In this document: piece after piece, positions 14,150 to 55,477 of the stretch
How positions within the stretch are numbered: the first letter of the stretch is position 1
Layout: every line of letters starts with the position of its first letter
From: Gigantopelta aegis
Taxonomy: Eukaryota; Mollusca; Gastropoda; Neomphalida; Peltospiridae
DNA length: 64,000 bases
Direction: 5' to 3'
Assembly (NCBI RefSeq): GCF_016097555.1
Contig: NC_054703.1
Coordinates: forward strand, 12,619,554 to 12,683,553
Notes under the pieces: generated by a model
Seen by the model: the letters and a program-made list of their open reading frames with translations, nothing else
What the model was told of the DNA's origin: nothing
Databases searched by the model: none
Made by a program: the position numbers and the translations under genes

Positions 14150-14310
14150 TGTTGGAGCCAGTAGGATCGATACCCGTTGGTGAGACCATTGGACTATTAA
14201 ATGTAGCTGGTTTCCAGTCTAAGGCTATAAGTCAGAATTACGAAATGATTGACATTCAATAGCCGATGATTAATAAATCAATGTGCTCTACTCTAGTGGT
14301 GTCGTTAAAG
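14150..14310 (+). mobile_element. SINE relic, tail T1
   Basis: Only the 3' part is clear: GACATTCAATAGCCGATGAT, TAATAAATCAATGTGCTCTA, GTGGTGTCGTTAAAGAAAG. The preceding 100 bases may hold a decayed head (GGATCGATACCCG). It lies in the presumed intron just upstream of zinc-finger gene 1. Confidence 0.6.
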
Positions 14311-14381
14311 AAAGAAAAAAACAACAACTTTTAAAACTTTTGTTTATTCATTATTTACTGTACTATACTACTATTTGCTTA

Positions 14382-14405
14382 TACATCGGCAAATGTTTAT
14401 TCCAG
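14382..14405 (+). promoter_or_regulatory. Candidate 3' splice site of zinc-finger gene 1
   Basis: CGGCAAATGTTTATTCCAG ends at 14405 after a T-rich stretch. The identical 19 bases precede zinc-finger gene 2 on the other strand (55552-55570). Conservation between paralogues together with the ending CAG and the pyrimidine-rich context supports a shared intron acceptor, with the coding exon starting at 14406. Confidence 0.6.
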
Positions 14406-14483
14406 ACAGAATTAAAGAAAGAAGACATCGTGATACAAAATTTACAGTTCATAACATCGATGATCCTTTGTCTTAAAGGCAAT

Positions 14484-16202
14484 ATGTCTAGCAGTGATGA
14501 GAGTTGTGTCGAACGTGGGGTCTCGTCCACACTTTGCGGAAACAACCCGGATCTGGAAGGACAGACGTCAACAGATTCTTGTGAGAAACCTTTCCAATGT
14601 GGGATGTGCTTCGAGTGTTTCTCTTACAAGTGTCACATTATGCAGCATATGTTAATGCACACTGGAGTTAAGGCTTTTAAATGTGAAATGTGTTTGAAAT
14701 GCTTCTCAAAGATTTCGCATTTAAAAATACATATGATGTTGATTCACTCTGGAGATGGGCCTTACAAATGTGAGGTCTGTGCAAAGTGTTACTGTGACAC
14801 TTCCAGTTTGAAACAGCATATGCTGGTTCACACTGGAGTTAAGGATTTTAAATGTGAGGTGTGTGCAAAATGTTTCTCACTCAGTTCCAACTTCAAAAAA
14901 CATATGTTGATTCACACTGGTGTTAGCTCCTTTAAATGCGAGGTCTGTGCAAAATGTTTCTATGGCAGTAGCGACTTTAAGAAACATATGCTGGTTCACA
15001 CTTCAGTTAAGAATTTCAAATGTGAAGTGTGTGAAAAACAATTCACACGAAGATCCACCGTGAAACGACATATGATCATTCACACTGGAGTTGGACTGTA
15101 CAAATGTGAGGTCTGTGCAAAATGTTTCCATGACGCTTCCAGTTTGAAACAGCATGTGCCGATACACACCAGAGTTAAGGATTTTAAATGTGAGGTCTGT
15201 TCAAAATGTTTCCGTGACACTTCCAGTTTGAAACGGCATGTGCCGATACACACCAGAGTTAAGGATTTTAAATGTGAGGTCTGTGATAAATGTTTCTCAC
15301 ATAAGTCAGAGTTGAAACGACATATGTTCGTTCATGCTAGTGATTGCCCTTTCACATGTGAGGTGTGTGCAAAACGTTTCTGTGGTAATTCCAGATTGAA
15401 AACTCACATGTTAATACACACTGGCGTCAAGTCTTACAAATGCGACACGTGTGCAAAATCGTTTTCTCGACGCCCCACCTTGAAACAGCATATGTTGTGT
15501 CACACTCGAGTTAAGAATTTCACATGTAACGTCTGTGCAAATGGTTTCTTGCGCAAAAACGAGTTGAAGAGACATATGTTTATCCACACCGGTGTTAGTC
15601 CTTTCAAGTGTGACTTCTGTGCAAAATGTTTCTGTGATAGGTACAAAGTAGAACAACATATGAAGACCCACACAGGTGTTAAGTCTTTCGAATGTGATGT
15701 GTGTGCAAAACGTTTCTTGACGAGCTCCCATGTGAAACAACATATGAAGACCCACACAGGTGTTAAGTCTTTTGAATGTGATGTGTGTGAAAAATGTTTC
15801 ACACAAAGACCGAACTTGAAAAAACATATGCTAGTTCACACAGGCGTCAAGTCTTTCAAATGTGAGTTGTGCGAAAAATGTTTCTCACAAAATTCTCAAC
15901 TTAAAAAACACATGACCGTTCACACTGACGTTAGGTCTTTCCAATGTGAAGTATGTGAAATTTTTTTCTCATATGATACCACTTTGAAACAACATATGCT
16001 GATTCACACTGGAGTCAAGAATTTCAAATGTGAGGTGTGCAAAAAGTGTTTCGCACGCAATGTCATCTTGAAACAACATATGTCCATTCATACTGGTGAG
16101 AAACCTTTCAAATGTGACCAGTGCACAAAATGCTTTTCTCGGACCTCTCTGCTTAAAAGTCATCAGCTGATTCATACTAATGAGAAATCTTTGAAACGTT
16201 GA
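14484..16202 (+). CDS. C2H2 zinc-finger protein 1, 19 fingers
   Basis: A single open exon encodes about 572 residues from the ATG at 14484 (MSSSDESC). The frame stays open upstream to 14283, but that part crosses the candidate splice acceptor at 14405 and looks like intron, so the shorter start is preferred. Residues 1-36 form a leader shared with gene 2 (CGNNPDLEGQTS and CEKPF). Nineteen C2H2 fingers of about 28 residues follow from residue 37 to 565, each C-x2-C-x12-H-x3-H. Most linkers read HTGVKxF rather than HTGEKPF; only the last two use GEK or NEK. No KRAB, BTB, SCAN or ZAD domain is seen. Family knowledge: such proteins are nuclear DNA-binding regulators. The target is unknown. Fingers near 7-8 and 14-15 are locally duplicated. 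After the stop, more finger copies exist only as decayed repeats. Confidence 0.85.
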   Translation: MSSSDESCVERGVSSTLCGNNPDLEGQTSTDSCEKPFQCGMCFECFSYKCHIMQHMLMHTGVKAFKCEMCLKCFSKISHLKIHMMLIHSGDGPYKCEVCAKCYCDTSSLKQHMLVHTGVKDFKCEVCAKCFSLSSNFKKHMLIHTGVSSFKCEVCAKCFYGSSDFKKHMLVHTSVKNFKCEVCEKQFTRRSTVKRHMIIHTGVGLYKCEVCAKCFHDASSLKQHVPIHTRVKDFKCEVCSKCFRDTSSLKRHVPIHTRVKDFKCEVCDKCFSHKSELKRHMFVHASDCPFTCEVCAKRFCGNSRLKTHMLIHTGVKSYKCDTCAKSFSRRPTLKQHMLCHTRVKNFTCNVCANGFLRKNELKRHMFIHTGVSPFKCDFCAKCFCDRYKVEQHMKTHTGVKSFECDVCAKRFLTSSHVKQHMKTHTGVKSFECDVCEKCFTQRPNLKKHMLVHTGVKSFKCELCEKCFSQNSQLKKHMTVHTDVRSFQCEVCEIFFSYDTTLKQHMLIHTGVKNFKCEVCKKCFARNVILKQHMSIHTGEKPFKCDQCTKCFSRTSLLKSHQLIHTNEKSLKR

Positions 16203-16553
16203 AAATGCACAGAATGTGTTAAAAGACAGAGCAGTGTTTTTGTTAAACGTTATCAGTTGATTCGTGTCAATGGGAAATCTTTGAAATGTTGAAAATGCAC
16301 AGAATGTGTTACAGATAGAGCAGTGTTTCTGTTAAAAGTTATCAGTTGATTCGTGTCAATGGGAAACCTTTGAAATGGTGAAAATGCACAGAATGTGTTA
16401 CAGATAGAGCAGTGTTTATGTTATAAATTATCAGTTGATTCGTATCAATGGGAAACCTTTGAAATGTTGAAAATGCACAGAATGTTTTACAGATAGAGCA
16501 GTGTTTCTGTTATAAATTATCAGTTGATTTGTGTCAATGGGAAACCTTTGAAA
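16203..16553 (+). pseudogene. Decayed zinc-finger tail repeats of gene 1, about 89-bp unit
   Basis: About four repeats of roughly 89 bp follow the stop. Each is a worn copy of the last finger: TGCACAGAATGTG stands for the second cysteine pair, GTTATCAGTTGATTCGT for the histidine helix and GGGAAACCTTTGAAATG for the linker. An extra base or two per unit and a stop in the linker (TTGAAATGTTGA) prevent reading through. The array resumes after the SINE insertion at 24646. Confidence 0.8.
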
Positions 16554-17097
16554 GTAAAGTAAAGTTTGTTTTATTTAACGACGCCACTAGAGCACATTGG
16601 TTTTTTGTCTTATCATCGGCTATTGGACGTCAAACATGGTCATTCTGACACTGTTTTTTTTTAGAGGAAACCCGCTGTCGCCACATAGGCTACTCTTTTA
16701 TGACAGGCAGCAAGGGATCTTTTATTTGCGCTTCCCACAGGCAGGATAGCACAAACCATGGCCTTTGTTGAAACAGTTATGGATCACTGGTCTGTGCAAG
16801 TGGTTTGCATGCGCATGCGTGAGGACTTGCGGTCGTTTGAAAGTTGCTCTCGAATATATCAAGTTTGGACTAGTATACTGGTACGCTAGTACTTATAATT
16901 TTATATACATACTTTGTAACTGATGTGTGATCTTGTAGAAAAGTTTTGTGGATTTCTAATGAACATTTTCAGTATTATTGAAGGATTTTTAAAATGCACG
17001 GTTTACATTAATTAATTTTCAAATGTGAAGTGAGTTATAACTCACTGTTTCTACTGACAACTGGAGAACAATAGAAAAACTGCCCGGAAGCAGAACA

Positions 17098-18653
17098 ATG
17101 GAGTCTGATTGCAACTATTCTAATGACCAAGAGGCTGATCTGGACCATAACAATAGTATAATACACGACACTCAAGAACCAAGTCAAGTGGAAAGCGAAG
17201 TGTTTCAAAACATACACGATCAGCTTGGAAGCTTGGATATAAATGACTTTGAACGTAATCTTTTACACATATACGAAGGTAGAGATTGCGAATTAAACCA
17301 TGTGAGATGCAGTATGTATGATTATGCGAAGAGTAAATGTGAACACTTTCCTGAAGGCCGATGTTTGATTAAACGCGTGAAACGATCGCAAGGTGAGCGT
17401 TCTGTTTCTCAGAAATATGCTAACGACATATACATGTTATGTCACTATGTCATGGGCGAGTCACCGAAACAACACTATGCAGTGATGTGTTAAGCAAGAC
17501 AAGGACCCAGAGTGGCTTGTATGGAGATGACGATGCCGATGTCACCTTAAACAGCAATACGACAAACAAGACGGACTGTGGGTCACGAAATGGGTTCGAC
17601 CTGGCAAGTATTGTCACTTCCATTATTGAAATCAAAGAATTGATAAATGAAAAATTCCTTGTACTTTCAAATCGCCTAGATAAAATAGAAAAGGGCAAAG
17701 ATAAGGAAATTGAGTTTCTAAAATCTAAACTAACTGAAAAAGAAGAACGAAATAAGATGTTAACGGAGCAAATGAACATTCACTTTGTTAATGAACAAAA
17801 GCTGACATCTGAAAATAAACTATTGAAAAGCGACACAAAAGAAATGGAAATAAAACTTTCTTCAAGTCATTCGGAACAGAGGCGGATGTCCGATCAATTC
17901 CGAAAACACGATGTAATAGTAGGAAAGGTAGACACTATAATGCAGAGGACCAAGACATCTTATGCCTCTCTTCTTTCTGCCGATATTTCTTGTAACTCAA
18001 TGTCGCCTATGACACCGGAACGACGCACACAGCATGCTGAAAACACTACACCTTTGTCTGGAGTTAAGAGTAATGTGCTGATTGAGGAAAATTCTTCAAC
18101 GATGTCGCATAAAGTTCATACTTCTCAACAGCAGAACGGCAACGTGTCGCCGTCACCCGTAGATAAGGAGCCACACGAGACGCCACAAACAACAGACAGT
18201 TTTGATCTCAACAAACGCAATATTGATGACATTCATATTGAATTCGGCAGTGTTCATCCCTCCACAGCTGCTACTGTAGGAGAATCGATTCCCACTTTAG
18301 GGCCTAACATGGATTTATTCAGTGGTGATAGAAAGAAGAAAACAATCAGATTTGTGTTATCCAGAATTAAAGCAGACAAACCCTTTGCCCTTGTAAGTGA
18401 TGCAATCATAAAATATGCCACACAAAAACACGTTGTGGTAACCTATGTAAGATTAATGAAAACATGGACTAATAGGGCTGGTAAAAATATTAGTTACACC
18501 ATTCAAATAAACATTGATGCAATATGTGCACCTAAGATAGATGATTCATTTTGGCCTGACGATGTACCCTGTAGGCCGTACATCCCTAGGTCGCAAATGA
18601 ATCATCATCACGACCAGGACTGGTCAAATGAAGAAATAAATAATTACAATTAG
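17098..18653 (+). pseudogene. LINE ORF1 protein, one frameshift
   Basis: The ATG at 17098 opens MESDCNYSNDQEADL. Near 17485 the reading changes frame and continues to the stop at 18653. The first section has a cysteine/histidine cluster (CELNHVRCSMYDYAKSKCEH). The second has a long coiled coil (IKELINEKFLVLSNRLDKIE onward, about 80 residues) and a low-complexity Ser/Thr/Gln section. Its C-terminal basic domain contains KKKTIRFVLSRIKADKPF and ends with IPRSQMNHHHDQDW. ORF1 proteins of LINEs bind the element RNA and act as nucleic-acid chaperones; coiled coils drive their trimerisation. The zinc-cluster plus coiled-coil order resembles other molluscan LINE ORF1s. Confidence 0.75.
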
Positions 18654-20680
18654 CGGTACTCTAGAAGCCAATAATGAAAATAGTTACGTTTATAATACTA
18701 TTAATTATTTTCACTTTCACACTTCGTATTGTGACCTGGAACATGAGAGGAGTGATGTATGGCACTCCTCACTTAGTAACATTACTAAACAATGTAGACA
18801 TTGCTATTATTACGGAGCACTGGCTCCACGATCATTCAAAAATGTTTCTTTGTAATCTGAGATCAGACTTTAATGTAGTTGTAAAATGTGACAAAAACAC
18901 GAATAATTCCACCCGAGGGTTTGGGGGAGTAGCAATTATGTATCGGAAAACAGCTTATTTCCAAATTGAAAACATAGACTTACATTTTGACCACATTGTC
19001 ACAATAAAAATAATGAAGTCAGATTACGAACATGTTTACCTGATAGGTACACGCCTTCCCTCTACAAATTATACAAATCAACATTATTTAAATGCTCTTG
19101 AAAATGTGTGTGAGGTGTTTGATAAATATTCAAGTGACGGTGCATGTGTGATAGCAGGTGACTTAAATGTGGATATTCACAGATGTGATTTCCAGAAATC
19201 TTACAGAGTTAGAACTCTGAGAAACTATTCAAACAGAGACATTTGATTTCTACATCATGTATATCACCAGAACAACCAAAGTGTACATTTAGATCTAAAG
19301 ACAATGCCAACAGAAGCACAATTGACTATATTTGTGTACCTGAATATATGCGTGGATGTATTCTTGTATGTGAAGTTAACCAACTTATTCCCTATGATAT
19401 ATCTGATCACTATTCATTATATAGTACTATATCTATATTTAGGAGTAGAATAGATAATTTAGCTGCCAATGATGTTACGCTAAAATGGTCCAAAGCCAAC
19501 GAAGATGATTTAAGAATGTACAAAACAGAAGTAGATAAACTGTTAAACTTTACATATAACCAAACACACGAATGTTACGAACAAGATATAGAAACGTATA
19601 ACACAAGAATTGTGCATAGTCTTTTATATGCATCTCATATGTATATACCACGAGGAAGATATAGACGATACTTGAAACCGTTTTGGAAACGTGACGGCTT
19701 AGATAAAGATCACCACACAATGAGAGAAAAACGTCGAGAATGGAAAAAAGATATGAAACCTCGAAATCCACAATCCATTTCTTATCGTAATTATAAAGAT
19801 GCGAAACGTGTGTTCCGAAAAAACAACAGACGTTCGAAATTGAATTATAAAGATTATGTGTATAAGGAAATTGAAAATAGTTCAAATGTTGATGTGGGGT
19901 ATTTTTATAAAACTGTTAGGCATTTTAGACAATCGTCTTCAACAATAAACCTACTCAAATATAACGGGACTGAAGCAATAACTCCATATCAAATTACATG
20001 TTTATGGAAAGATTATTTCGCAGATCTTGCCACAGAAAATACTGAATGCCAGAATTCGGAAAAAATTAATATTGAACAACTTTTAGGCGATAGTTATTCA
20101 CAGGAAGAAACAATTTTAGCTGACCTCGTGACATTTGGTGAAGTAGCCTCTGTTATTAAACCCCTTAAAAATAACAAAGCACCAGGACCAGATGGCATCT
20201 CTAACGAACACTTAAGATATGCAGGAGATATATTTATGCAACATATTCAAATTCTTTTTAACCTGATTATTGAAAAAGAATATATTCCTAAAGCTTATAG
20301 AATTGGATGCACTATTCCATTATATAAACAAAACGGAAAAGACAAAAGTGACCCACGGAACTACAGAGGTATAACTTTGACATCTTCATTAGGCAAATTG
20401 CTAGAAAAAATCATCCTTAAAGGAAACATGACACGAGACCATATTATAGCTCATTTTAAAAGAAAAATGATATAAAAAAAATATACAAATAACTTTATAA
20501 CAATAAAATACGTGTAGTTAACTTAAAATGAAGAAATTACGCTAATCAGTATCAAAGTACGATTTATGCATATTTCTTCGTGAGCATTCGGAAAAAAGGG
20601 AAGTGACGTCAGAGCCGCTGTACTCTTCCATTGTTGTTAACTGTTTATATATGGAGTAAGGGGCTTACGATCTTTTCAGA

Positions 20681-20850
20681 CCAACAGTGCCGTACTGCGC
20701 GGCCTTTGGGTGTAAAAATAAACAGTTTAAACGATCGGGATTGTCTTTTTATGGTTTTCCAAAGGATTGTATCCGAAGAAAGACGCGTGTATTTTATCGC
20801 AAAAGAAAAGATTGGACACCAACACCGCATAGTACTTTGGTGTCAGCCTA
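20681..20850 (+). pseudogene. THAP domain, partial
   Basis: In one frame the sequence reads PTVPYCAAFGCKNKQFKRSG, then LSFYGFPKD, RRKTRVFYRKRKDW and TPTPHSTLVSA. This is the N-terminal two-thirds of a THAP zinc finger (C-x4-C, FP, W, then normally C-x2-H-F). The second metal pair is missing: the frame reaches a stop right after VSA. TCTTTTCAG just before the domain may be a splice acceptor. THAP domains bind DNA and are found in P-element and Kolobok transposases and in host regulators. Confidence 0.7.
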
Positions 20851-21476
20851 ATTACAGCCCGGAGCCCGAACGTTACCCGGAGACAAAAACAGTACTCAGT
20901 TGCGAATGCCGAGGTGTACATTGTACATATTTGGCACAAAGATACACCTCAGCATGATGTATTTATATATGTTAAAACAAAAATGTAGAATTATTTATTT
21001 ATTTATTTTTTTGGAAAAAAAAAAAAAAATTCATGTTAGGGCTGTAGGCCTACATAACAAAATCTGTATTCACCGTCCGAAGAAGGAAACGTCAATAAGT
21101 AATTAAATATGGCATATACAAACATGGGATTTGGCATGAGGATACATCTCAGTACGATGTATTTAAATATGTTTTTAAAAAACGTGTAGAAAACAATAAT
21201 AATTTTAAATAATGTTTTTAATCTTCGGGCGGAATACGTCACAAAAACGTTCCTCATCGCCCGAAGCCCCAAAGCAACACGAAGTTCAATACAAAATAAA
21301 CCACTACTGTCGGTGTCGAAATAACTATTATGTTTCATCCACGGGCTGACTTGAGAATCGGAGTGTTGTTTTAGTTAATTGGTCCTTTCTTTCCGTGGCC
21401 TGCACATGTGATTCCTGATTGGCAGGTGTATATTGCAGGGTATCGACCAGGTAAGTGATTACCACAGTCTAGACAT

Positions 21477-21675
21477 CAGGGCCGTACCCTGACCAAAATC
21501 CATGGGGGGGCACTAAATTTTATAAATAATTTTTAACATACTATAAAGATTAAACATTTCTATGCTATTACTGGAGATATATATTAAAAAAAAAAAAAAG
21601 GACAAGATTCTCGGGGGGGGGGGGGGGGCAGCAGCCCCCCGGCCCCCCCCCCCCCCCCCGGAGGGTACGGCCCTA
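21477..21675. mobile_element. hAT-like MITE, about 200 bp, inside THAP element 1
   Basis: The ends are CAGGGCCGTACCCT and its complement (GAGGGTACGGCCCTA), with an 8-base direct repeat CTAGACAT at 21469-21476 and 21673-21680. It carries G and C homopolymer tracts next to its ends, as the MITEs at 12258 and 38241 do. It has no coding capacity. This is the innermost layer of the nest. Confidence 0.75.
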
Positions 21676-22069
21676 GACATACATACAATACGTGCCAGTT
21701 TTTTTTTAAGATCACAGGGTATTGTGGCGTAACCTGTCGCGACTATAGTACAATGTTAATGGACATTATCAGCCGCCCTGCTTCATTACTGTAAATAATG
21801 CTGTAAAACTCTTGATTAAGTAGACTTTCCCATCTAAAATTACAAAACTGACCAATTACGTAGTACCAAAGAAAAGAAAATTATCACTTGGGTATCGTGA
21901 GTGGTCGTTTTTACTCTAACGCACCCTACCAATAGGCCTAATAATATGCTACTTTTTTTTTATGAGAGAAAAATACTATAACCCCATTTCGTTCTATTGA
22001 TGCAAATAGAATTATATATTTAGTTTAAAAGTTGATTATACTCTCAAGTCATTTATGTTGTTTTACAAG

Positions 22070-22339
22070 TCAGGTTAATGAAAGTGAAGCGCCTTGTCGT
22101 AAATTAGAGCGTTTGTTTACACTGTGCATACAGATTTCATTATGTACAGCCCGAACATAAAAAATGCGATATTTTCTAATATTGGTCGACCGGTCTGGTC
22201 TGGCACCATCAGTTTCTCCACCCTCCGACTCGCTATCCGTTTTTTCTTCAGTATCACTGTTGTAAGTAAATGTGTGTCTTTCTTCATTTACTAACAGCTC
22301 ATATTGATACGGCAAACCGTTTTGCGAACGAACACTCAT
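22070..22339 (-). other. Acidic leader frame, possibly start of a P2X7-tail-like protein
   Basis: On the minus strand the frame begins MSVRSQNGLPYQYELLVNEE and runs into an acidic patch (SDTEEKTDSESEGGETDG). The pattern PYQ(Y/F)E followed by Asp/Glu/Ser-rich sequence resembles, from memory, the start of P2X7-C-terminus-like proteins of invertebrates, but the diagnostic WCxCxxC section is absent. Convergent with the THAP domain. The same order occurs in the second THAP element. Confidence 0.35.
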
Positions 22340-24339
22340 TGTTTTGGTAAGCTGTGCAAGTCTTAGATTCTTTATGAGTGGTATGGACTAATGCTTTTAA
22401 GTGTAAGGCTTCAGATCAAGCGACGCGTCTCTGACGTCACGGACCTCGTGATTGCCCTGCTCATTAAAGATCGGCAATTTCCGCTAAGAGCTCGTATCTG
22501 GGGTTCTTTTATGGAGATATTTTAAGTAATTAATTTTTTATAAAAAATTTTTTTAGGTGATTCAATTTATAATTAATTGTACATGGTTGGTGCCAAATAT
22601 GGTTTACGTGACATGTTTCCTTTAACCGAATTCAACAGTGGTTCGAGAAATCAAATGTAAACTTCCCTGATCCACTTCAATTTGGATTTTGTAAAAACAG
22701 TGGTGCCCAATTAGCTGCCTGGACATTACAAGAATGTATAAGTCATTATGCCCAATCCCAGACTGGTCTCCGTGCTACATTTCTTGATAATGAAAAGGCC
22801 TTTGACCGCGTGTGGCAAGATGGCCTGCTTCACAAACTTTATAACTTAGGAATAAAATCTAAGAGCTGGCGTCTTATTAGACACTCTTATACGACAGCTT
22901 GTGCCTTTGTTGCTTTTCAGGGATGTGCTTCCGAACAATTCTGTATTACCCGTGGTGTTGGACAAGGCAGAGTTATGTCTGCTTGGTTATTTTTGGTTTT
23001 TATCAATGACTTGATGACCGAACTGAGAATGACTGGCTATGGTATACGTATGGCACATATAAAAATACCAGGACTATTGCTTGCAGATGATACCATTATT
23101 TTAAGTGCAAACACTGATTAATACGGTTTACTCGTATGCTACCAAATGGCGTTTAAAATATAATCCCAACAAAAGTTGTTCCATATTATTTAATAACAAA
23201 CGCAATTGTAACATTGGAACTACATTTCTTCTGAGGCAAAGTAAAATTAACCATGTTGAAGAAACGAAATATGCAGGTGTTTTATTTACCAGTAATAATT
23301 CCTGTCAGAAAAGAATCGAACGTGCATGTGAAAAAGCTACTAAAACAGTTAACTCACTGTACATGACTGGATTACAAATAAACGGTTTGAATCCTATTGC
23401 AAGCGCTAAAATCTGGAAACGAGTTATATTGCCATCATCATTTTATGCCTGTGAACTATATTTTGATATCTCTGATACTAATATTAATAAGATGGAATGG
23501 GTTCAAAGACAGTTTGCTAGAAGAGCCCAAGGTCTAGATGAGCGATCGCCTAGTATTACAACCACGGCCACTCTGGGGCTATGGTCAATGCAGACCTATA
23601 TTGACAAGTGCAAGCTATTGCTACTTGGACGTTTGTGCCGACAGGAAACTAAACATATATCGAAGAAACTCTTTCTTTGGAAACTTGGACAATATCTTAT
23701 TGGCATAAGAACACATGCCGACTTTATAAGCGATATATTTAATGTGATTAAGAAATATAATCTTACTGATGTGATATACAGATATGTGAAATACGGAGAA
23801 TTCATAGATAAACTCCATTGGCGTGCAATAGTAAACAGAAAACTAATGGAATTTGAGTCACCAAACTAAACTTCATAGAACGCCTGAACTTTCCCGCTTC
23901 TGTGACATTCACCCCGATATCGGTGTCCACATTCTTTGGAAAATAGCGTACGTTCATCCAAATTGTAAAATAATTTTATCATCAGTCGTAAAAATAGGTA
24001 GCATGAAAACCTTTCCAAGGAAATGTATTCTATGTGATAAACAAACGTTAGATTATACTAAACATATTTTATTACACTGTGAAAAACTAATAACAGAAAG
24101 AAATGCTGCTTTTGAATTACTAGCAAACATTATGTCTATTGACCAGTATGTTACAATATGTGACCAAAGTGACGAAAATCTCATGAACTGTATTTTGGGA
24201 GGAGAAAACAATGACCTGAATGGTCTTGATTTTCATCAGTGGATTGCGTTTATTTTAAGCATATCAAAATATATACATCTTTGTCGTCAGTACATCCGGT
24301 TGGATTTCTAAACTGTTATAAATAGTTATGAAGGGCATG

Positions 24340-24346
24340 TCCTCTT

Positions 24347-24397
<51 letters not shown>
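24340..24397 (+). repeat. (TC)n microsatellite in the LINE 3' region
   Basis: About 58 bases of CT repeats directly after the ORF2 stop region, followed by about 100 bases that end the LINE. Confidence 0.95.
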
Positions 24398-24398
<1 letters not shown>

Positions 24399-24645
24399 AT
24401 ATTAATGTATTACGGTACCTGTATTTTTGTGTTATTTATTTAATTTGAATGTGTGATTGTATGCAATCTTCATTTATGGAGGAAATAAAGAAAATCATCC
24501 TACCCATTGAGCCTTGCGGAGCACTCACTCAGGGTTCTCAGAGTCGGTGTCTGGATTAAAAATCCCATTCCTCGACTGGGATCCAAACCCAGTATCTACC
24601 AGCCTGTAGACCGATGGCCTAACCACAACGCCACCGAGTCCGGTA

Positions 24646-25080
24646 GGGAAACCTTTGAAATGCTGAAAATGCACTGAGAAACCTTTGAAATGTTGAGAAT
24701 GCACTGAGAAACCTTTGAAATGTTGAAAATGCACCGAGAAACCTTTGAAATGTTGAAAATGCACCGAGAAGCCTTTGAAATGTTGAAAATGCACTGAGAA
24801 ACCTTCGAAATATTGACAATGCACTGAGAAACCTTTGAAATGTTGAGAATGCACTGAGAAACCTTTTAAATGTTAAAAATGCACTGAGAAACCTTTGAAA
24901 TGCTGAAAATGCACTGAGAAACCTTTGAAATGCTGAAAACGCTTATAATGTGTGTTTTTTTCAGACAGAGCGGGTTTCTGTTAAAAGTTATCAGTTGATT
25001 CATACTAATGAGAAACGTTGAAAATGCACACAGTGTTTGACAGACAGCACGGTTTCTGCCAGAGGGTATGAAGGGTAATA
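24646..25080 (+). pseudogene. Continuation of the decayed finger tail, 30-bp repeats
   Basis: Right after the SINE the linker fragment of the zinc-finger array, GAAACCTTTGAAATGTTGAA, is repeated about ten times with a 30-base period (24646-24950). Two longer decayed finger units follow (TTATCAGTTGATTCATACTA near 24990). The short period means the array contracted to the linker part and then expanded. It is continuous with 16203-16553 if the SINE and its contents are removed. Confidence 0.8.
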
Positions 25081-25741: not shown

Positions 25742-25754
25742 TTTACTTCCGCGT

Positions 25755-26155
25755 ACCGGCCTCGGTGGCGTCGTGGTTAGGCCATCGGTCTACAGGCTGG
25801 TAGGTACTGGGTTCGGATCCCAGTCGAGGCATGGGATTTTTAATCCAGATACCGACTCCAAACCCTGAGTGAATGCTCTGCAAGGCTCAATGGGTAGGTG
25901 TAAACCACTTGCAACGACCAGTGATCCATAACTGGTTAAAAAAAGGCCTAGGTTTGTGTTATCCTGCCTGTGGGAAGCGTAAATAAAAGATCCCTTGCTG
26001 CCTGTCGTAAAAGAGTAGCCTATGTAGCGACAACGGGTTTCCTCCAAAAAACCAGTGTCAGAATGACCATATGTTTGACGTCCAATAGCCGATGATAAAA
26101 TAAAAAATCAATGTGCTCTAGTGGCGTCGTTAAATAAAACAAACTTTACTTTTAC
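25755..26155 (+). mobile_element. Complete SINE, head A, tail T1
   Basis: The head starts CCGGCCTCGGTGGCGTCGTG and contains an A box (TGGCGTCGTGGTTAGGC) and a B box (GGGTTCGGATCCCAG). The body has GTTATCCTGCCTGTGGGAAG and AAAAGATCCCTTGCTGCCTG. The tail contains GACGTCCAATAGCCGATGAT and ends GTCGTTAAATAAAACAAACT plus an ACTTT repeat. The target duplication TTTACTTCCGCGT flanks it (25742-25754 and 26156-26168). This is the best reference copy in the window. tRNA-derived promoter boxes are expected to drive pol III transcription. Confidence 0.95.
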
Positions 26156-52617: not shown

Positions 52618-52689
52618 TTAATAAGAATGGAGAATATGGTACATCAAGCTGGTGTAATCTGTAAAACATTCCGTGCACCTTTAAGACTT

Positions 52690-53220
52690 CAAATGTTCCT
52701 CGCCAACACGAATCAACAGATGGCTTTTAAAACAAAAAACCGAGAAAAACACTTTGTGCACGCGTCACACCAGTTGCCGGTGTGAACTGACTGATGGCCT
52801 TTCAACATATCAGACCGAGAAAATCGTTTTGAGCAGGGATCACATTTCAACGGCCTTTCGCCATTGCGAATCAACATGTTTTTTGAGGTGGACATTACAT
52901 AAGAAACATTTTGCACATACCTCACATTTGAAAGATTTAACATCAGTTTGAACCAACATGTCTTTTTATGTCTGAATTGCATAAGAAACATTTTGCACAC
53001 ACATCACATTTGAAAGGTTGAATACCAGTGTGAACCAACATATGCTGTTTCAAATTGCGACTGTGTGAGATATATTTTACACAGACATTAAAAAAAAATA
53101 ACACCAGTTAAATTCTTTACTCCAGTGTCAATTAACATGTGCTTTTTCAAACCATAACTCAGATGAACACACTTTCTGCACACCTGATACTGAAAATTAA
53201 GAGTTGAGCAACAAGACACG
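52690..53220 (-). pseudogene. Decayed zinc-finger gene copy
   Basis: On the minus strand at least six C2H2 fingers can be followed, in changing frames: a worn finger near 53200-53100 with YGLKKHMLI, then FKCDVCAKCFLCNSDIKRH, a finger with SNVRYVQN, ERPLKCDPCSKRFSRSDML followed by KGHQSVHT, and CDACTKCFSRFFVLK. Several small indels break the frame. Its upstream flank (53199-53480) matches the flank of zinc-finger gene 2 (55646-56300), so it is a tandem duplicate of that gene with inner fingers lost or replaced. Confidence 0.8.
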
Positions 53221-53487
53221 AAGTGTCGTCTTTTGTTACAACACTAGACATGCGCTATTCTGCCAATGAGTTTTGCTTGTACTTTAAGAGTATTGTTTTG
53301 TTTTGTTTGGTGGGGGGGGGGGGTCTGAGTTTTAAAAAACCCCATTGTTCTTACCTATAATGAACTAATACGTCCGTAAAACAAACAAGATTAATGTCAT
53401 GGCATCCAAGGCATCAGTCAATTAATTTTAATATTTATAAACTAAAAGAAATATTTTTAAAAACCCAGTCAAAATGCAAATACTGCC
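53199..53487 (+). repeat. Duplicated flank (copy without the SINE)
   Basis: TAAGAGTTGAGCAACAAGA, TTGTACTTTAAGAGTATTG, TAATGTCATGGCATCCAA and GCATCAGTCAATTAATTTTA match 55646-55850 plus 56223-56300 at about 80-85% by eye. It preserves the empty site of the SINE at 55831-56221. Confidence 0.8.
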
Positions 53488-53499
53488 ATGAGTAGAGGA

Positions 53500-53775
53500 A
53501 GGAAGGAAATGTTTTATTTAATGACACACTCAACACAGTTTGTTTTGAGTTATATAGCATCAGACATATGGTTAATGACCACAGATATTGAGAGAGGACA
53601 CCCGCTATCGCCACTTCATGGGCTACCCTTTACGATTACAAGCAAGGGATTTTTTATATGCATCATCATACAGACGGGATAGTACTTGTCATGGCCTTTG
53701 TTACACAAGTTGTGGGGAACTGGCTGGAACGAGAAATAGCATAAATGGATCCACGGACAAGGATCAAGGGGCTGC
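53500..53775 (-). mobile_element. SINE, body B, tail T2, head truncated
   Basis: Left side: ATGTTTTATTTAATGACACA, GCATCAGACATATGGTTAAT, then GAGAGGACACCCGCTATCGC, CAAGCAAGGGATTTTTTATA and CTGGCTGGAACGAGAAATAG. It stops around GGACAAGGATCAAG, inside the B-type head. The T2 tail differs from T1 by the CAGACATATGG segment in place of CAATAGCCGATG. Confidence 0.85.
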
Positions 53776-53966
53776 TACACCCCCCACCCCCCGCTCTGAC
53801 TCGGGTGTGAAATTATCGAATTTTATACCAAACGAACTGGCGTGTCACACCAGTGAGAGTCCGAGCCCATGTTTTATTTCGAGTATCAGATATTAAAAAC
53901 TTAACATTCACCGAGAACGAAATGAATCTTTGTGGGCAAAAATAGACATGTACAAGTTATAAAGTA
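53776..53966. other. No recognised feature
   Basis: About 190 bases after the SINE with no recognised motif. Confidence 0.4.
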
Positions 53967-53974
53967 ATTCATGA

Positions 53975-54106
53975 CAGTGACGTAGCGTGGGTTGCCAGCG
54001 TCCGGGGCAAGGCAAGTATTGCGCCCCCTAACCAGTGGACTGTTAGCACTCCCTTAGTCCCTTCCACCAGTCCAGAATTTTGTGCCCCGCCCACGCTACG
54101 CCACTG
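53975..54106. mobile_element. hAT MITE, 132 bp, 8-bp target duplication
   Basis: Ends CAGTGACGTAGCGTGGG and, reversed, CAGTGGCGTAGCGTGGG (one mismatch). Flanks ATTCATGA (53967-53974) and ATTCGTGA (54107-54114) form an 8-bp duplication with one change. Typical hAT. Confidence 0.9.
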
Positions 54107-54214
54107 ATTCGTGAACCTCATGATATATCTGAGCACTGTTTCTAATTTGTAAATGAACAAACGGCTAGCCGTGCGGAAATAACCGCACTAATGGAAAGGC
54201 AGCTTTAAAAAGAT

Positions 54215-55477
54215 TTAACACCAGTGTGAATCAACATATGCCGTTTCAAGTTTGCCACTCTGTAAGAAACACTTCGTGCACACCTCACATTGAAAAGATT
54301 TAACACCAGTGTGAATTAACATATGTTGGTTCAAACCCTGACTGCGTGAGAAACATTTTGCACACACCTCACATTGAAAAGATTTAACACCAGTGTGAAT
54401 CAACATATGCTGTTTCAAAAAGCAACTGTGTGAGAAACATTTTGCACACACCTCACATTTGAAAGTTTTAACACCAGTGTGATTCAACATATGCTGTTTC
54501 AAGGCGTTACTGAGTGAGAAACATTTTGCACACACCTCACATTGAAAAGATTTAACACCAGTGTGAACCAACATATGTTTTTTCAAATCGCCACTGTGTG
54601 AGAAACGTTTTGCACAAACCTCACATTTCAAAGGTTTAACACCAGTGTGAATCAACATATGCCCTTTCAAATGGCCACTTTGTGAGAAACATTTTGCACA
54701 CACCTCACATTGAAAAGATTTAACACCAGTGTGAACCAACATATGTTTTTTCAAATTATAACTCTCTGAGAAACGTTTTGCACAAACCTCACATTTCAAA
54801 GGTTTAACACCAGTGTGAATCAACATATGCCCTTTCAAATCGCCACTGTGTGAGAAACATTTTGCACACACCTCACATTGAAAGGATTTAACACCAGTTT
54901 GACACAACATATCATTTTTCAAATCGCCACTGTGTGAGAAACATTTTGCACAGACCTCACATTTGAAAGGATTAACACCAGTGTGAATCAACATATGCCG
55001 TTTCAAGTTGTAACTGCGTGAGAAACAGGTTGCACACACCTCACATTGAAAAGATTTAACACCAGTGTGAACCAACATATGCGATTTCAAATCGCCACTG
55101 TGTGAGAAACATTTTGCACACACCTCACATTGAAAAGATTTAACACCAGTGTCAAACAACATATGACTGTTCAAGGTGGAACCATAAGAAAAATGTTTTT
55201 CACAAACTTTACATTTAAAATTCTTGACTTCATTGTGTACTAACATGTGAGTTTTCAAGCCGTAACTCAGACGAAAACACTTTCTGCACACTTCACACTG
55301 ATATGGTCGTTCACCAGTGTGGATTCTCATATGCTGCTTAATCTTACTCTTGCATGAGAAACACTTTAAACACATCCCACATCGAAAAGGTTTCTCACAA
55401 GCATGTGCTGATGTTTGTACTTCCAGATCATGGTTGGTTCCACAATGGTTGACACATCTCTGATCATTGGTAGACAT
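54215..55477 (-). CDS. C2H2 zinc-finger protein 2, 14 fingers
   Basis: One exon of 420 residues starts at the ATG at 55477 (MSTNDQRCVNHCGTNHDLEV). The leader up to residue 30 matches gene 1 (CGTNHDLEVQTS, CEKPF). Fourteen C2H2 fingers follow from residue 31. Only the first linker is canonical (HTGERPY); most of the others read HTGVKSF or HTGVKPL. Fingers repeat a few DNA-contact helices (SHSGDLK four times), so they expanded recently by unequal exchange. One finger (SHSGDLKNDMLCQT) has lost both zinc histidines and another ends LFDT, losing one. At the 3' end an extra A near 54250 shifts the frame, so the last finger ends KLETAYVDSHWC instead of the expected KRHMLIHTGV form. Family knowledge suggests nuclear DNA binding; no effector domain is seen. 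Likely functional apart from the end. Confidence 0.85.
   Translation of the reverse strand: MSTNDQRCVNHCGTNHDLEVQTSAHACEKPFRCGMCLKCFSCKSKIKQHMRIHTGERPYQCEVCRKCFRLSYGLKTHMLVHNEVKNFKCKVCEKHFSYGSTLNSHMLFDTGVKSFQCEVCAKCFSHSGDLKSHMLVHTGVKSFQCEVCATCFSRSYNLKRHMLIHTGVNPFKCEVCAKCFSHSGDLKNDMLCQTGVKSFQCEVCAKCFSHSGDLKGHMLIHTGVKPLKCEVCAKRFSESYNLKKHMLVHTGVKSFQCEVCAKCFSQSGHLKGHMLIHTGVKPLKCEVCAKRFSHSGDLKKHMLVHTGVKSFQCEVCAKCFSLSNALKQHMLNHTGVKTFKCEVCAKCFSHSCFLKQHMLIHTGVKSFQCEVCAKCFSRSQGLNQHMLIHTGVKSFQCEVCTKCFLQSGKLETAYVDSHWC

Follow-up and report, generated by a model that had tools for sequence, protein, structure and literature searches.

Four ordered insertions, one inside another, behind a zinc-finger gene of Gigantopelta aegis

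Four mobile elements lie one inside another behind a zinc-finger gene of the gastropod Gigantopelta aegis: in which order did they arrive, and what can that order say about the families to which they belong? The stretch of DNA analysed here (the window) is 64,000 nucleotides long and occupies C5:12619554-12683553 of the searched genome (1,149,253,464 bases in 5,216 contigs). From the outside inwards it presents a decayed zinc-finger tail, a short interspersed nuclear element (SINE), a long interspersed nuclear element (LINE), a DNA element flanked by TTAA, and a miniature inverted-repeat transposable element (MITE). An earlier note, made from the letters of the window, had proposed these five layers and had ordered the events as array decay, SINE, LINE, TTAA element and MITE. 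The layers exist, far beyond chance, with several details of their junctions corrected below, and the order is backed by other copies in the same genome. We read the nest as a series of separate insertions, stacked in apparently neutral DNA behind the gene (probability about 0.95). It is well ordered but ordinary in kind.

Uninterrupted sites were found for three of the layers (LINE, TTAA element and MITE), all within the same genome. The innermost is the simplest. A hAT5-like MITE with the ends CAGGGCCGTACCCT...AGGGTACGGCCCTA occupies positions 21477..21675, between two copies of GACAT (21472..21476 and 21676..21680). Target duplications of hAT elements are typically 8 bp long, and a duplication of this length had been proposed for the MITE. 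This is ruled out, as all seven other copies that were read are flanked by 5-bp duplications. Six of these seven end in GGCCCTG, and the window copy and the remaining one (L073) in GGCCCTA; the final A of the window MITE produces the apparent 8-bp duplication, the true one being GACAT. The MITE is absent from all 29 other TTAA-element loci read. These loci and the window, 30 in all, rank highest among the matches to window queries or were fetched otherwise, and are biased towards young, similar copies. A search with the MITE itself returned 644 first-look candidates; among the 40 that were scored, the 39 others are 91-94% identical to the window copy, the difference lying largely in G/C runs. 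Outside homopolymer runs the divergence of the window MITE is 0.77% (1 of 131 sites).

The MITE lies within a non-autonomous, Kolobok-like element at 20421..22621 (forward strand), bounded by TTAA at 20417..20420 and 22622..22625. Its 10-bp inverted ends (AGGAAACATG) are perfect, with AGGAA at both ends, and near 22177 about 150-160 bp have been lost from this copy alone. Of 29 complete copies, the window included, 28 are flanked by TTAA at either end, L023 being the exception; one incomplete copy (L039) was excluded from this 29-copy alignment. The family is numerous (2,037 first-look candidates), and the 40 that were scored, among them the window, are 96-100% identical. The window copy is 1.26% from the majority. 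The name "THAP element" given to it in the earlier note needs correcting, since it has no more than a probable THAP domain remnant (20690..20851, forward strand, 53 aa and a stop; PF05485, E-value = 3e-4). This remnant matches profile positions 1-47 of 87 at 21.9 bits, narrowly below the curated cut-off of 23.9. The longest stop-free frame among the 29 copies is 148 aa, and no transposase with DDE and H2CH motifs is found in them; an autonomous THAP element is thereby ruled out, and the family is filed as a non-autonomous, Kolobok-like derivative only. Searching with the 53 residues of the remnant gave 871 candidates; among the best 150, which include the window and are all 100% identical, there is likewise no frame over 148 aa and no autonomous partner. 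Together the copies point to a family that is probably young and non-autonomous.

That this element entered the LINE, rather than arriving within it, is indicated by the other LINE copies and by the reading frame. Twelve close copies of the LINE are at hand, two of which begin 3' of the site; the element is absent from all ten that span it, nine with no more than 4 mismatches over 40 bp and one (L050) with a small indel. The earlier note had made its order hinge chiefly on this comparison. Its boundaries for the element are exact, and so is its statement that the LINE frame is restored on removal: with the element taken out and one TTAA kept, the frame runs for 567 codons to its stop, and with the element present a stop occurs about 18 codons in. 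In L050, TTTAATAA replaces TTAA at precisely this site, a 4-bp change that is possibly an excision trace. Such a trace, and the slightly higher divergence of the TTAA copy than of the LINE, are what one might expect if the source copy of the LINE had already held the TTAA element, with or without the MITE, and had been inserted whole, so that the inner layers would be older than the LINE insertion here. We regard this as highly improbable, given ten site-spanning copies that lack the element and the fact that it breaks the reverse transcriptase (RT) frame.

The LINE itself lies in two parts on the forward strand. The 5' part (16812..20420) is frameshifted and holds open reading frame 1 with a coiled-coil-like stretch, seen by eye, an endonuclease (Exo_endo_phos, PF03372, E-value = 3.1e-07) and, again by eye, the start of the RT. 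The 3' part (22626..24498) holds the RT (RVT_1, PF00078, E-value = 4.9e-15), a (CT)n run and an (ATC)n tail. The two enzymatic domains assign the element to the LINE class; a C-terminal zinc-knuckle-like stretch was seen by eye, zf-RVT reaching only E = 0.11. The earlier note had placed the LINE at 16807-24498. Its 3' end is right, since the tail ends at 24498 and most copies inspected share the terminus ...GGAAATAAAGAATATC(ATC)n (L054 ends earlier). The 5' end falls instead at 16809-16812, from where the window shares its sequence with the full-length copy L070. The left half of the SINE stops at about 16806, and within the GCATG at the junction (16807..16811) 3-5 bases match neither SINE nor LINE. 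Neither a target duplication nor a flanking repeat is present at the edges of the window LINE, and the insertion removed about 4 bp of the SINE (ACAC), as judged from an uninterrupted paralogue. The family is small: a search with an RT piece gave 24 matches (the window, the 12 close copies at 91-96% identity, 4 at 71-73% and 7 short ones), and a 3' query gave 39, with 5 close copies beyond those 12. In the parts compared, the window LINE is 0.8-0.9% from the family majority.

The SINE that was broken by the LINE sits, in reverse orientation, in the tail of the zinc-finger gene. The C2H2 reading frame (14277..16202, forward strand; 641 aa from stop to stop) has 19 C2H2 motifs found by pattern, with a zf-C2H2 match (PF00096) at 7.9e-73. 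The decayed finger tail (16203..16553, forward strand) follows as 89-bp units in tandem, which are finger-derived and span 16148-16553; it continues beyond the SINE at 24661..25080, on the same strand, with 30-bp units and then remnants. The 3' part of the SINE (16554..16806, reverse strand) and its 5', tRNA-like part (24499..24645, reverse strand) match an intact copy in the window (25755..26155, forward strand) contiguously, at 25899-26152 and 25754-25898 respectively, with no gap or overlap at the break. Neither this contiguous break nor the divergence of the two parts, given below, speaks against their being halves of one SINE, as had been proposed. The 15-mer GGGAAACCTTTGAAA occurs exactly at both ends of the SINE (16539..16553 and 24646..24660, forward strand). 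The same 15-mer is also part of the 89-bp unit (at 16361 and 16450, making four occurrences in the window), so that the match across the SINE is partly given by the array. The right copy reads GGG as in the left array, whereas the 10 other right-hand units listed read GAG; this and the exact position at the SINE ends support what is probably a true target duplication. The head of the intact copy has an ARAGORN match at 25759-25831, and flanking duplications were visible by eye in several of 12 SINE copies inspected (not counted). The family is abundant, with 5,355 first-look candidates, of which 40 were scored. The nested SINE is 3.9% from the majority of 16 copies, which were chosen like the TTAA loci, as best matches to window queries or from loci fetched otherwise, and share their bias towards young, similar copies.

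A further marker of order comes from a second copy of the gene. When the genome was searched with the 89-bp tail, a single close relative emerged, at C5:12775259-12775567 on the minus strand with 91% identity. It belongs to a paralogous gene copy about 140 kb from the window gene, on the same chromosome: the loci L079 and L081 hold the same zinc-finger gene, at a Kimura two-parameter (K2P) distance of 3.3% over 1,826 aligned sites, with the same tail. The SINE of the paralogue begins at the same base in the same orientation and continues through GTGGTTTACACTTACCC without a LINE, keeping its left flank along with some 12 bp past the LINE site. Because both copies have the SINE and one of them the LINE, the SINE insertion predates the duplication of the gene, and the LINE entered a single copy later. 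The earlier note had the order of insertions right and had overlooked this duplication between SINE and LINE. The two paralogues are closely related and share a chromosome, and their SINE regions differ by 5.8%, against 3.3% in the finger coding region, which leaves some room for two independent SINE insertions or for a spread of the SINE by gene conversion, in which case the duplication need not separate SINE and LINE. We consider this quite unlikely: the SINEs share the identical base and orientation, and three substitutions common to both occur in none of 16 other copies; gene conversion, moreover, would still put the SINE ahead of the LINE. Apart from this, the head of the paralogous SINE is scrambled (L079, C5:12774600-12775700), its pieces lying in either orientation, a pattern like that left by template switching. 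The paralogue has one finger unit (84 bp) fewer and a 1-bp frame difference, its longest stop-free stretch being 494 aa.

Several observations weigh against reading the nest as an ordered stack of insertions. A finger tail uninterrupted by the SINE was not found at any locus, nor was an uninterrupted SINE site seen in the finger tail of a distant paralogue (L080, units of about 85 bp). Because no such SINE-free locus was found, the SINE junction depends on the duplication, which lies within a repeat holding the same 15-mer. The two halves of the SINE are unequal in divergence from the majority of 16 copies (5.8%, 8 of 144 sites, and 2.8%, 7 of 252). The SINEs of the two paralogues share six non-majority states, which places them only fourth (tied) among 153 pairs; the pairs ahead of them are diverged copies, and three of the six states are gap columns also present in others. 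The rearranged SINE head of the paralogue makes its right side not comparable. Finally, the LINE (0.8-0.9%) is less diverged than the TTAA copy within it (1.26%), so that divergences alone do not give the order.

Taking these points into account, we still strongly favour an ordered stack, and comparisons within the genome show its course. The last fingers decayed into the 89-bp tandem array, which holds a tRNA-derived SINE, and gene, array and SINE were then duplicated locally. The SINE of one gene copy holds the LINE, with no target duplication; the LINE holds the Kolobok-like element at a TTAA, and that element holds the hAT5-like MITE. SINE and LINE presumably arrived by target-primed reverse transcription, and the enzymes that moved both DNA elements would have been supplied from elsewhere, because neither element has an intact transposase.

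Can this order serve to date the families? The earlier note held that the window dates them relative to each other. This is too strong, as the nest orders four single insertions. The three inner insertions all appear recent, and their order comes from the nesting only, not from the divergences. For cut-and-paste elements, divergence also counts changes already present in the source copy. The values for the LINE, the TTAA copy and the MITE (0.8-0.9%, 1.26% and 0.77%) do not resolve the ages of the families. As an example of relative dating the nest is clean and readable, and its general lesson is a modest one; the gene duplication, for its part, ties the activity of the elements to the history of the zinc-finger cluster.

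The LINE family raises a question of its own, since its integration looks unusual. Of 16 LINE copies, the window being counted as a miss, 10 are flanked by direct repeats at least 30 bp long that come within 20-24 bp of either end; the 46 controls show 1 such case, among 28 TTAA-element sites, and none among 18 SINE/MITE sites. Clean, single two-copy repeats are found at L048 (41 bp), L052 (161 bp), L054 (312 bp) and L051 (323 bp), and at L044 a 488-bp repeat begins in unique sequence and extends into an array. At 41 to 488 bp, these five direct repeats are far longer than usual target duplications. L044, L048, L051, L052 and L054 lie on the contigs C3, C8, C6, C1164 and C12, respectively. L045, L055, L089 and L091 are ambiguous cases in arrays or microsatellites, and L092 has several matches at 84%. 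The misses are L046, L047, L049, L050, L090 and the window; a repeat of about 200 bp does occur at L046, its 5' edge being 31 bp off. Insertion edges also fall in tandem arrays (period at least 10) for 7 of 17 LINE copies (L044, L045, L049, L055, L089, L090 and L093, with unit lengths varying from 19 to 92 bp) versus 2 of 47 controls (Fisher p = 0.0008). These 17 copies exclude the window LINE and include L053 and L093 by their 5' flank only, their 3' junctions being unreadable; both were left out of the 16-copy test. The 19 SINE/MITE controls of the array test include the window's own MITE. Both tests have small numbers and flank lengths unequal between copies and controls, and were designed after the first cases had been seen; LINE flanks of 120 bp missed several long repeats that longer flanks revealed.

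On balance we lean slightly towards a low-copy LINE family with odd integration, making target duplications of tens to hundreds of base pairs, sometimes none or a small loss, and lying at tandem arrays far more often than the controls do. If so, second-strand cleavage may be loosely placed, or may exploit breaks in tandem repeats. The long direct repeats might instead be tandem duplications that existed before the LINE came in, an explanation we find rather unlikely. Insertion into an array, where the edges of 7 of 17 copies lie, yields matching flanks without any duplication; the repeats of L092 are just 84% alike, and those of L054 differ by 6.4% (20 of 312 sites), more than its LINE parts suggest (0.9% and 0.3% from the family majority), which weighs against a target duplication there. 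L048, L051, L052 and L054, however, each show a single flanking match with edges 0-9 bp from both LINE ends and no further unit in the flanks read, where arrays of at least three units would usually give more matches.

The surroundings of the nest are less eventful. The 30-bp units beyond the SINE (24648-24939) form a minisatellite whose unit derives from part of a decayed zinc finger. A genome search with this array recovered no second copy, the matches being the array itself, relatives with the 89-bp unit on C5 and short stretches of 31-41 bp; the array may thus have grown before or after the SINE arrived. A second finger region, with an 82-84-bp period, lies at 52657-55171 of the window on the minus strand, and its stretch 52657-52738 resembles the decayed tail at about 75%. 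No Rfam match was obtained at gathering scores. The DNA behind the zinc-finger gene looks neutral, and the nest would have no function as a unit.

How do the layers compare with known systems? The SINE has no match to a named family, and a text search with a 14-base piece of it found no paper; it resembles the tRNA-derived SINEs of molluscs in its tRNA-like head, its TTTAC-type tail and its thousands of first-look candidates. For the LINE, the R9 retrotransposon of rotifers, with a target duplication of 126 bp, offers a comparison; R9 is specific to ribosomal DNA, whereas the window LINE family is dispersed, with flanking repeats of 41-323 bp in the clean cases. For intact copies of Hebe, one report gives 7-12 bp (PMC2861651). 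Another says of the second half of LINE integration that it "remains very poorly understood" (PMC6895275). If the long repeats are true target duplications, a family with such widely varying lengths would be a natural test case for LINE integration, and it deserves a study of its own. The TTAA element shares its target and its AGGRR-type ends with the Kolobok superfamily and T2-MITE of Xenopus, which are described as having a TTAA target, terminal AGGRR and a transposase with a THAP domain (PMC6004289). It differs from Kolobok in that its 2.2 kb hold the THAP remnant only, the longest frame being the 148 aa given above. The 199-bp MITE is hAT5-like by the length of its duplication: a 5-bp target duplication is given as the defining trait of hAT5 families in one paper (PMC12730594). 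CAG(G/A)GG ends, like its own, are reported for one hAT MITE in another (PMC3517528). Ordering by nested insertion is an established method; element-in-element insertions are used to order activity in TinT and in interruption analysis, as outlined in two reports (PMC3014933; PMC2517846). Those approaches draw on many nestings, whereas here we have one nest and, as an extra marker, the duplication of the gene that carries it.

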